A stretch of 64,000 bases of DNA, from NCBI RefSeq assembly GCF_004362195.1, contig NZ_SNWG01000001.1:1798001-1862000 (forward strand). Direction: 5' to 3'. A program made the position numbers and the translations under genes. The notes beneath the pieces are model-generated. The model was not told where the DNA came from. It did no database searches and saw only the letters and a program-made list of their open reading frames with translations. Positions within the stretch are counted from its first letter, which is position 1; every line of letters begins with the position of its first letter. Shown here piece after piece: positions 38,038-40,666 of the stretch. Source of the DNA: Microbacterium sp. BK668 (lineage in GTDB: Bacteria > Actinomycetota > Actinomycetes > Actinomycetales > Microbacteriaceae).

Positions 38038-38117
38038 CCTGAGCCCACTCGCACCGGTGCGACGCCGCGGCGCACGGAAAGGGGCGGCCTCGGACAGCCG
38101 CCCCCTTGCACCCCCGC

Positions 38118-38789
38118 TTACTGGGCCGGAGGCATCAGCACCGTGTCGATGAGGTAGACGACGGCGTTGGCGGTCTGCACGCCGCCGCAGACGACCATGG
38201 CGTCGTTGACCATCAGCTCATCGCCGCTTCCGGTCACCTCGAGGTCGGCGCCCTGCACGGTGGCGTGCGTGCCGACGATGTCGTCCGGCTGGATCTGGCC
38301 GGGCACGACGTGGTAGGTGAGGATCGACGACAGCGTCGCGGAGTCGGTCTTGAGTGCCTCGATCGTCGCCGGGTCGATCTTGGCGAAGGCGTCGTCGACG
38401 GGAGCGAAGACGGTGAACTCGCCGCCGTTGAGCGTGTCGACGAGGTCGACCTCGGGGTTCAGCTGTCCGCTGACGGCCGAAACGAGCGTCGTGAGGAGCG
38501 GGTTGTTGGATGCCGCGACCGCCACGGGATCCTCCGCCATGCCCGCGACCGAGCCGTCGCCGTCCGGCACGGCTTCGGCGTAGTCCTGGCAGCCGGGGCC
38601 GACCAGGTTGGCCGCCGGGTCCATCATGTCGTCGGTCATCGCCGACTGCGTGGGCTCGGAGCTCGGCGCCGTCGACTCCATCGAGTCGTCCGAGGTGCCG
38701 CCGCTCGAGGAGCTGCAGGCCGAGAGGGCGAGAGCCGCCGCGAAAGCGAGTGAGAGTCCTGCGGCGAGGTGGGTCTTCTTGGTGAGCAT
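38118..38789 (-). CDS. Fasciclin-domain lipoprotein (MPT83/MPT70-like)
   Basis: 223 residues. Signal peptide with lipobox ALSAC (Cys about 25), an S/T/D/M-rich linker, then one FAS1 domain (about 90-220): [42 protein letters not shown] and [15 protein letters not shown], ending [11 protein letters not shown]. Resembles the SigK-controlled MPT83/MPT70 proteins of M. tuberculosis. ATG at 38789 follows GGAGG. Its promoter matches that of sigK on the other side of the intergenic region. Confidence 0.9.
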
Positions 38790-38874: not shown

Positions 38875-38903
38875 TGTTCGAGGCATCCGTCCGAACGGAT
38901 TGG
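38875..38903 (-). promoter_or_regulatory. ECF (SigK-type) promoter of the fasciclin gene
   Basis: On the minus strand: CCAATCC (38903-38897), 16-nt spacer, CGAACA (38880-38875). Predicted start near 38868, giving an ~80-nt leader. Both hexamer blocks and spacing are identical to the sigK promoter. Confidence 0.75.
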
Positions 38904-38940
38904 ATTCCGCCGCGAACACGGGTCCGCCCGCGCGCGCGGA

Positions 38941-38969
38941 CCAATCCGACCGGCGCGCGGGCACGAACA
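38941..38969 (+). promoter_or_regulatory. ECF (SigK-type) promoter of sigK-rskA
   Basis: CCAATCC (38941-38947), 16-nt spacer, CGAACA (38964-38969). Predicted start near 38976, ~48 nt before the sigK ATG. M. tuberculosis SigK promoters use CCATCC and CGAAT-like elements, so autoregulation is likely. Confidence 0.75.
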
Positions 38970-39023: not shown

Positions 39024-39626
39024 ATGCTGAGCAGTGTGGTGATTGACGACGTGGACGTGCCCGAGGACGGCCCTGGGCGCATCGACCACGTCGGCGACCT
39101 GCTGGGCCGCATCTCCGACGGAGACCAGGCCGCCTTCGCCCGCCTCTACGACATGCTCGCCTCCCGGGTCTTCGGCCTGATCCTGCGTGTGCTCGTCGAC
39201 CGCGCGCAGAGCGAGGAGGTTCTGCAGGAGGTGTTCCTGGAGGTGTGGCAATCCGCTGACCGATTCGCTCCGAAGAAAGGTCAGGGGAGGGCGTGGGTGC
39301 TCACGATCGCGCACAGACGTGCCGTCGACCGCGTGCGGTCGGCGCAGGCCAGTGCCGATCGCGACGTCCGCGTCGGCTTCCGTGATCTCGACGTCGCTCA
39401 CGACGGAGTCGCCGAACAGGCGGAGCTTCGCATCGAGGGACTCCGGGTCGCGAAGGCCGTCGCCGCTCTGCCGGAAGCGCAGCGCGAGGCCATCACGCTG
39501 GCCTACTTCGGTGGGTACAGTCAGAGCGAGATCGCCGCGCTGGTCGGCGCGCCCCTGGGAACGATCAAGACGAGGATGCGCGACGGCCTGTCGCGCCTGC
39601 GCACCGAGATGGGGGTGACACCGTGA
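39024..39626 (+). CDS. sigK: ECF RNA polymerase sigma factor SigK
   Basis: 200 residues. Sigma region 2 includes [34 protein letters not shown] and [17 protein letters not shown]. Region 4 includes [23 protein letters not shown] and [15 protein letters not shown]. Assignment to SigK rests on the partner RskA-type anti-sigma factor and the fasciclin gene opposite. The ATG at 39024 has AAGGA 11 nt upstream; GTG at 39036 is an alternative. It overlaps rskA (GTGA). Confidence 0.9.
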
Positions 39627-40666
39627 ACGTGCAGGAGTTCGCCGAGCTGGCTGCCGGGCATGCCCTGAACGCGCTGTCGCCGGACGACCAGCGCGCCTTC
39701 CGCAACGCTCTCGCCGAGCATCCGGAGTGGGCCGCCATCATCGATGCCGATGTCGCGACCGCGGCCCAGCTGGGTGAGACCGTGGATGCCGTGACGCCCC
39801 CGGCAGCGCTCCGCGGAGAACTCCTCTCGCGGATCGCCGGCGGCCCGATCACCGACGAGCGGCCGCCGCAGCTCGGGCGCTCGGCTTCCCGGAAGCAGAG
39901 AGCCGACGGCTCCGACCCGCTCGCGCCGGGCGCTGCCGCCTCCGACCCGCTCACGACGAAACCTGCCGCCGCCGAGCCGCTCGCGCCGGGCGCTGCCGCC
40001 GCCGAGCCCTCCAAGCCGGGCGCTGCCGCCGCCGAGCCCTCCAAGCCGGGCGCTGCCGGCGCCGAGCCCCCCAAGCCGAGCGTTCGCGCTTCCGACGTCG
40101 TCGAGCCCCTTCCCGGGCTCGTCGCGCCGCTGCGCTCCGCCGACGATCCGCGTCGTCGCGACGAACCGCCGCCGACCACCGAGGCGGTCCAGACCGTCGC
40201 GCGGCGCAACTGGACACGCGGACTGCTCGCGCTCGCAGCATCCTTCGTGCTCCTCATCGCCCTCGGCACGACCGCCGTCGTCATCGGCGACCGCCTGCGC
40301 GAGCCGGCGTCGGTCGCCGCCCTCAACGAGATCGAGGACGCGCCGGACGCGCAGGTGGCGACCGTGGAGGTCGACAGCGGCGGCACCGCTACCGCGCACT
40401 GGTCGGAGTCGATCGGCAAGGCGGTGCTCGTGACCGACGGCGTCGCCGAGCCGGCCTCCGGCAAGACGTACGAGCTGTGGTTCGTCCGGGGCGATACCCC
40501 CGTCTCCGCGGGCCTTTTCGACACGGACGACGCCGGGCGGGCGACGGCGCTCCTCGAGGAGCCCATGCAGACCGGCGACGTCATCGCCGTCACCGTCGAG
40601 GATCGGGGCGGCTCCAAGACGGGGCAGCCCACCTCGGACCCGATCTTCACCATCCCCACGGCCTGA
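39623..40666 (+). CDS. rskA: Anti-sigma-K factor RskA, with repeat insertion
   Basis: 347 residues. N-terminal anti-sigma domain ([20 protein letters not shown], about 1-75), then ~60 residues of a ten-residue Ala/Pro repeat ([14 protein letters not shown], about 97-156), a linker, one transmembrane helix ([21 protein letters not shown], about 207-227) and the C-terminal RskA domain ([20 protein letters not shown]). Usual RskA proteins are ~230 residues; the repeat and linker account for the excess. GTG at 39623 overlaps the sigK stop. Probably released by regulated proteolysis at the membrane. Confidence 0.9.
39911..40090 (+). repeat. Six 30-bp tandem repeats inside rskA
   Basis: Six in-register 30-bp units, e.g. 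GCCGAGCCCTCCAAGCCGGG plus CGCTGCCGCC, at 39911, 39941, 39971, 40001, 40031 and 40061. Units 4 and 5 differ by a single base. They encode the ten-residue repeat in the cytoplasmic linker. Confidence 0.9.

Follow-up and report, generated by a model that had tools for sequence, protein, structure and literature searches.

The window, a 64,000-nucleotide stretch of the genome of Microbacterium sp. BK668, contains a small locus in which a gene for a fasciclin protein and a sigma factor operon point away from each other. Three predicted promoter-type sites were located among the genes, two of them between the diverging genes and one inside the sigma factor gene. The features are as follows:

38118–38789 (−): fasciclin (FAS1) lipoprotein gene of the MPT70/MPT83 type
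38875–38903 (−): predicted SigK-type promoter of the fasciclin gene
38941–38969 (+): predicted SigK-type promoter 5' of sigK-rskA
39024–39626 (+): sigK, encoding an ECF sigma factor
39248–39276 (+): SigK-type site inside sigK, candidate internal promoter of rskA
39612–39617 (+): sigK codons 197–198 (GGG GTG)
39623–40666 (+): rskA, encoding a membrane anti-sigma factor

The fasciclin domain was recognized by PF02469 (E 1.1e-29), a lipobox (LSAC) was found by eye, and the nearest solved structure is that of MPT70 (1nyo, E 3.8e-63, residues 61–222), which bears out a first-pass annotation of the gene product as a fasciclin lipoprotein and places it with MPT70. The same annotation had named the sigma factor operon sigK-rskA, an identity upheld by a score of 247.4 bits against the NCBIfam model PRK09646 for SigK (cut-off 226), by the M. 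tuberculosis SigK chain of 4nqw as nearest solved structure (E 4.1e-47) and, for the anti-sigma factor, by a match to PF10099 (RskA_C, E 4.3e-24). The start of rskA overlaps the stop of sigK. With an MPT83-type fasciclin gene adjoining sigK-rskA, the locus as a system is the known mpt83-sigK-rskA cassette, which Veyrier and co-workers described in 2008 (as told in PMC7509140). Two repeats were observed at the locus: a 30-base tandem repeat of 5.7 copies within rskA (39912–40082, +), encoding a Pro/Ala/Glu-rich linker that joins the anti-sigma part to the membrane part, and a G+C-rich inverted repeat (38076–38110, found by eye) between the fasciclin gene and a downstream gene for an ArsB/CitMHS-type transporter.

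When aligned to 4nqw, the SigK of the window was found to lack both Cys133 and Cys183 and to be cysteine-free throughout, although its RskA is of full length. Among the 81 sigK loci described below, 76 encode no cysteine in SigK and five encode one (at position 29 or 1 of the matched segment), and all 81 contain an RskA-like region of 192 amino acids or more. M. tuberculosis SigK is reported to require the two cysteines for full activity; the pair is given for 94% of ECF18 and 56% of ECF19, and is usual but not defining for SigK (PMC7509140). As the same source gives a normal RskA for 77% of cysteine-less SigK proteins and an abnormal one for 23%, a cysteine-less SigK with a full RskA follows a known pattern.

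Both sites of the intergenic region read CCAATCC-N16-CGAACA, one on each strand, and face the fasciclin gene and sigK-rskA, respectively, in agreement with the first-pass annotation. They are the only exact matches to the two hexamer elements in the window with spacers of N14–N18 permitted; 0.01 matches are expected by chance, and two matches arose in none of 100 shuffles. The fasciclin ATG (38789) follows the end of the (−) site after 85 nt, and the sigK ATG (39024) that of the (+) site after 54 nt. The two promoters had been called identical, which is true of their hexamers and spacing but not of their scores, 26.8 bits on the fasciclin side and 19.4 bits on the sigK side, with a matrix trained on the fasciclin-side sites of relatives (69 sites; chance rate 0.0048 per kb with the scan filter used, 0.0044 with a slightly stricter one).

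A genome-wide search with the same motif had been proposed as a way to find further regulon members. Run on the 3.73 Mb genome, it returned both copies of the locus and no further exact copy. Three more matches (L003, L004 and L005) were found at one mismatch, and those at up to two mismatches are mostly noise, since 59 were counted in total against 37 for a control read backward. The pattern SCMATCCG-N15-CGAANA gave 27 matches at no more than one mismatch versus 3 for the backward control. Four matches are exact: the two intergenic sites, the one inside sigK and a site at C1:150095–150123 (+; L006 1501–1529), which precedes a conserved hexapeptide-repeat gene by 104 nt. Homologs of this gene in L349 and L358 have N17 sites in the equivalent position. 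A variant, CCAAACC-N16-CGAAGA, was found at C1:1406736–1406764 (−; L029, L406), 47 nt before a gene for a DUF4383 membrane protein (C1:1406299–1406688, −), whose relatives in other Microbacterium genomes have N17 SigK-type sites. A second fasciclin gene in this genome (L032) showed no SigK-type site reaching 5 bits. A stricter pattern, with C before CGAA, was matched in 53 of 59 Microbacterium genomes and gave no backward-control matches; judged by the spacer letters, all 53 include the sequence of the type found inside sigK.

Conservation within the genus was assessed on the window together with the 80 best of 394 confirmed sigK relatives (81 loci in total), 74 of these relatives being labelled Microbacterium and the others being MAGs or otherwise labelled. 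As the 80 are those nearest to the query, little about distant SigK proteins can be taken from the genus figures. Fasciclin-side counts refer to 78 loci, leaving aside L059 (contig edge) and L061 and L111 (no fasciclin gene found). A simple regular expression (CAATCC, N15–17, CGAAC/T) tried on 80 loci missed most sites and was dropped for the better core from an unseeded pair search, in which ATCCG-N15-CGAA was found upstream of the fasciclin gene in 71 of 78 loci, with maxima of 5–6 in five shuffled sets. The core ATCC-N15-18-CGA(A/T) is present upstream of this gene in all 78. On the sigK side, the core was found in 23/23 loci with an intervening dipZ gene and in 16/55 loci without one, and the matrix gave matches before dipZ in 22 of the former and directly before sigK in 19 of the 81 loci. 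Counting all kinds, a site heads the sigK operon in 41/81 loci. In Microbacterium, the fasciclin site is constant and the self-promoter optional.

The dipZ gene lies between the fasciclin gene and sigK in 23 of the 78 Microbacterium loci, divergent from the former and collinear with the latter, and its product comprises DsbD_TM, AhpC-TSA and Thioredoxin_10 domains. The same order occurs in other genera of the Microbacteriaceae (e.g. L271, L301, L317 and L323). No DipZ ortholog was found in the genome of the window, where the best match scored 26.8 bits. On the sigK gene tree, dipZ presence requires at least 12 changes, a count that does not distinguish gain from loss; loss is the simpler reading because the order with dipZ is widely spread. 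The compact arrangement is therefore probably derived from fas|dipZ-sigK-rskA by loss of dipZ, as suggested by the presence of dipZ in relatives and its absence from this genome. DipZ also belongs to the SigK-controlled locus in mycobacteria (PMC10540498), and dipZ adjoins sigK and the anti-sigma gene in the cskE-sigK-dipZ island of C. pseudotuberculosis (PMC3078919), as in the 23 loci counted here. The latter source describes full-length dipZ of Actinobacteria as restricted to pathogens, whereas Microbacterium species also carry the gene. The proposal that the regulon core is reduced to the divergent pair does not hold, given dipZ in these loci and in further genera and the additional SigK-type sites in this genome. 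Of the related proposal that the fasciclin protein is the primary ancestral SigK target, what stands is that fasciclin is the most constant target, both in the genus and in the wider samples described below; "ancestral" does not follow from compactness, as the compact form looks derived.

The site inside sigK had no counterpart in the first-pass annotation, from whose consensus it differs by two mismatches. It was first met by the fasciclin-trained matrix, at one sense-strand position of sigK in 5/5 same-genus loci of a sample of the order, and reads GCAATCC-N16-CGAAGA across codons 75–85, 346 nt before rskA, a distance that is fixed (345–346 nt) in the nine loci read for it. Its score of 21.0 bits exceeds that of the upstream sigK site (19.4). 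Among the 81 Microbacterium loci, ATCC and CGAA are in register in 79, the exceptions being L084, which has CAAACC, and L112, which has no internal −10 element; 78 of the real genes reach at least 10 bits, and 28 remain below 15. We interpret the site as a conserved promoter inside sigK from which SigK would drive production of its own anti-sigma factor.

Beyond the genus, two sets of loci were analysed, with site-less loci scored as misses in the site counts. In the order sample, sigK was matched at E ≤ 1e-25 in 100 of 149 genomes, and loci with wide flanks were obtained for 100 of 111 match rows, omitting that of the window itself, G032 (short contig) and the nine weakest-ranked; the other-genus set comprises 60 of 124 Microbacteriaceae genomes with sigK, mostly one per genus. 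Fasciclin genes near sigK carry a site in 19/21 cases in other Microbacteriaceae genera (0.05 expected by chance) and in 27/34 in other families of the order (approximately 0.08–0.1 expected), including 0/4 in family f16. A site heads the sigK operon in 58/92 loci outside the family, covering 12 of 13 families (approximately 0.4 expected by chance), with 0/3 in family f19, and 7 of 19 dipZ genes outside the family have one. In families f7, f14, f15 and f18, a gene further upstream carries its own site. In L148 this gene, near sigK, encodes a molybdopterin oxidoreductase (PF00174; 2532–4127, +), and a homolog with its own SigK-type site was seen apart from sigK in one Microbacterium (L367 1–1464, −).

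The strict internal site was found in 10 of the 60 other-genus loci, or 16 of 60 when CAAACC variants are included, and in 0/92 loci outside the family. On the SigK tree, in which 37 of 79 inner branches are weak, the trait changes at least 11 times. In the other-genus set, an operon-head site accompanies the internal site in 5 of 16 loci versus 39 of 44 loci without it (Fisher 3e-5); this inverse link is treated as no more than a lead, since well-supported branches provide just four independent pairs and a sign test is not significant. In two of six loci of family f12 (L168 and L180), SigK-type sites with N17 spacers are located elsewhere inside sigK, approximately 255 nt into the sigK domain, and possibly represent a separate internal promoter.

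If only the two divergent promoters were real, protein conservation over the stretch W-Q-S-A-x-R-F-x-P, combined with codon bias, would have produced the internal match as a by-product. The stretch is indeed conserved in the protein, so that part of the motif would arise at no cost, and the strict site is missing in 50/60 of the other-genus loci, as such a by-product might be. The codons, however, speak against it. The site is spelled by TGG CAA TCC GCT nnn nnn TTC GCT CCG AAC, with Q76 encoded by CAA (80/80), S77 by TCC (80/80) and P83 by CCG (81/81), and codon 82 ends in T in 80/81 loci, including those in which it encodes Thr or Val. Counted on a tree built without the internal-site stretch, third-base changes at codons 76, 77, 82 and 83 number 0, 0, 1 and 0, whereas the median for 130 comparable columns with conserved residues is 16.5; third bases are thus frozen at exactly the −35 and −10 codons, whereas neighbouring codons are free to change (23 changes at codon 78 and 31 at codon 86). 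The other columns with no or one change are F50, Y165, G197 and V198. The last two, GGG and GTG in 81/81 loci, serve as an internal control because they are located where the ribosome-binding site of rskA should be, of which they presumably form part. Furthermore, CAA is otherwise the minor Gln codon here (0.233 overall), and synonymous redraws seldom recreate it: at least 15 bits were reached in 28 of 4,050 redraws against 53 of the 81 real genes. We therefore regard a by-product as unlikely.

A real SigK promoter at this position might instead yield a shortened SigK or a non-coding RNA rather than RskA. SD-like purines together with GTG or ATG at codons 92–93 in many loci, including the window, would suit a shortened protein. 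No internal start codon 3' of the site is conserved across the 81 loci, though: codon 92 is GTG in approximately 34, several loci have neither GTG nor ATG at codons 92–93, and a truncated SigK from a conserved internal start was dropped as a candidate on these grounds. The fixed distance to rskA and the invariance of the presumed ribosome-binding codons likewise argue for RskA as the product, and we rate a shortened SigK or non-coding RNA slightly below the by-product in probability. Less probable than either is that a different ECF sigma factor, one controlling sigK, reads the sites. A first inspection of the genome gave 24 sigma-like candidates, among which the reader cannot be named from sequence, but the motif travels with sigK, heading its operon in 12 of 13 other families as described above, and the M. 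tuberculosis mpt70 site is reported to be read by SigK proteins from different species (PMC7509140). The preferred reading remains an internal SigK promoter for rskA, and with no conserved internal start codon RskA is its likely product, which would give negative feedback.

The locus shares with the mycobacterial SigK regulon the fasciclin protein, SigK and RskA, and the SigK sites before the mycobacterial fasciclin gene (PMC7509140, PMC10540498) may correspond to the strongly conserved SigK-type site in that place here. SigK of M. tuberculosis is described as controlling its own operon from a SigK promoter located further upstream within it, with dipZ as a target (PMC7509140, PMC10540498), whereas here one divergent region serves both genes and dipZ is absent. 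Further differences from mycobacterial SigK are the missing Cys133 and Cys183 alongside a full-length RskA and the SigK-type site inside sigK. For the latter, the closest parallel lies in C. glutamicum SigH-RshA, where a SigH-dependent promoter within sigH (PrshA) has been proven to make only rshA mRNA and was proposed to shut the response down (PMC3489674). As in PrshA, the site described here is of the sigma type, lies in the sigma gene in the sense direction and 5' of the anti-sigma gene, and is placed to make only anti-sigma mRNA. The sigma family and motif are different, however, and the C. glutamicum transcripts start 62 and 66 nt before rshA, whereas 346 nt separate the end of the SigK-type site from rskA. 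The C. glutamicum circuit is known from a measured transcript and its measured dependence (PMC3489674), the present site from sequence constraint. What appears to be new is a SigK-type site inside sigK under base-level constraint, the same circuit being already known from SigH/RshA; in searches of open-licence literature, we found no report of a SigK-internal promoter feeding the anti-sigma factor.

Taken together, the locus probably encodes an autoregulated SigK-RskA switch with constant fasciclin output, self-activation of sigK-rskA and an internal promoter that raises RskA. From the three sites, their conservation and the base-level constraint on the internal one, all established by sequence comparison, we infer that SigK reads all three sites, that transcription begins at the internal site and that the relevant product is RskA. 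Once released by RskA, SigK would transcribe the fasciclin gene leftward and sigK-rskA rightward, the latter constituting positive feedback. Free SigK would also start inside sigK, giving an mRNA with the 3' part of sigK and rskA, and this transcript would raise RskA over SigK and end the response. The positive feedback is not general, since 39/81 Microbacterium loci have the internal site and none heading the operon. A wider reading, which we offer tentatively and consider possible but on balance doubtful, is that the Microbacteriaceae repeatedly wrote a SigK promoter into the part of sigK that encodes region 2, bending its codons to preserve it: SigK would feed its own inhibitor, carriers would tend to lose the upstream self-promoter, and the switch would move from positive to mainly negative feedback.

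SigK-RskA controls the major tuberculosis antigens MPT70 and MPT83. A compact form of the system in an environmental genus, with a sharp motif and a constrained candidate internal promoter, would offer a safe model for testing anti-sigma feedback. The internal site would moreover be a regulatory element apparent only at synonymous positions, of a kind that promoter scans confined to upstream regions would miss.
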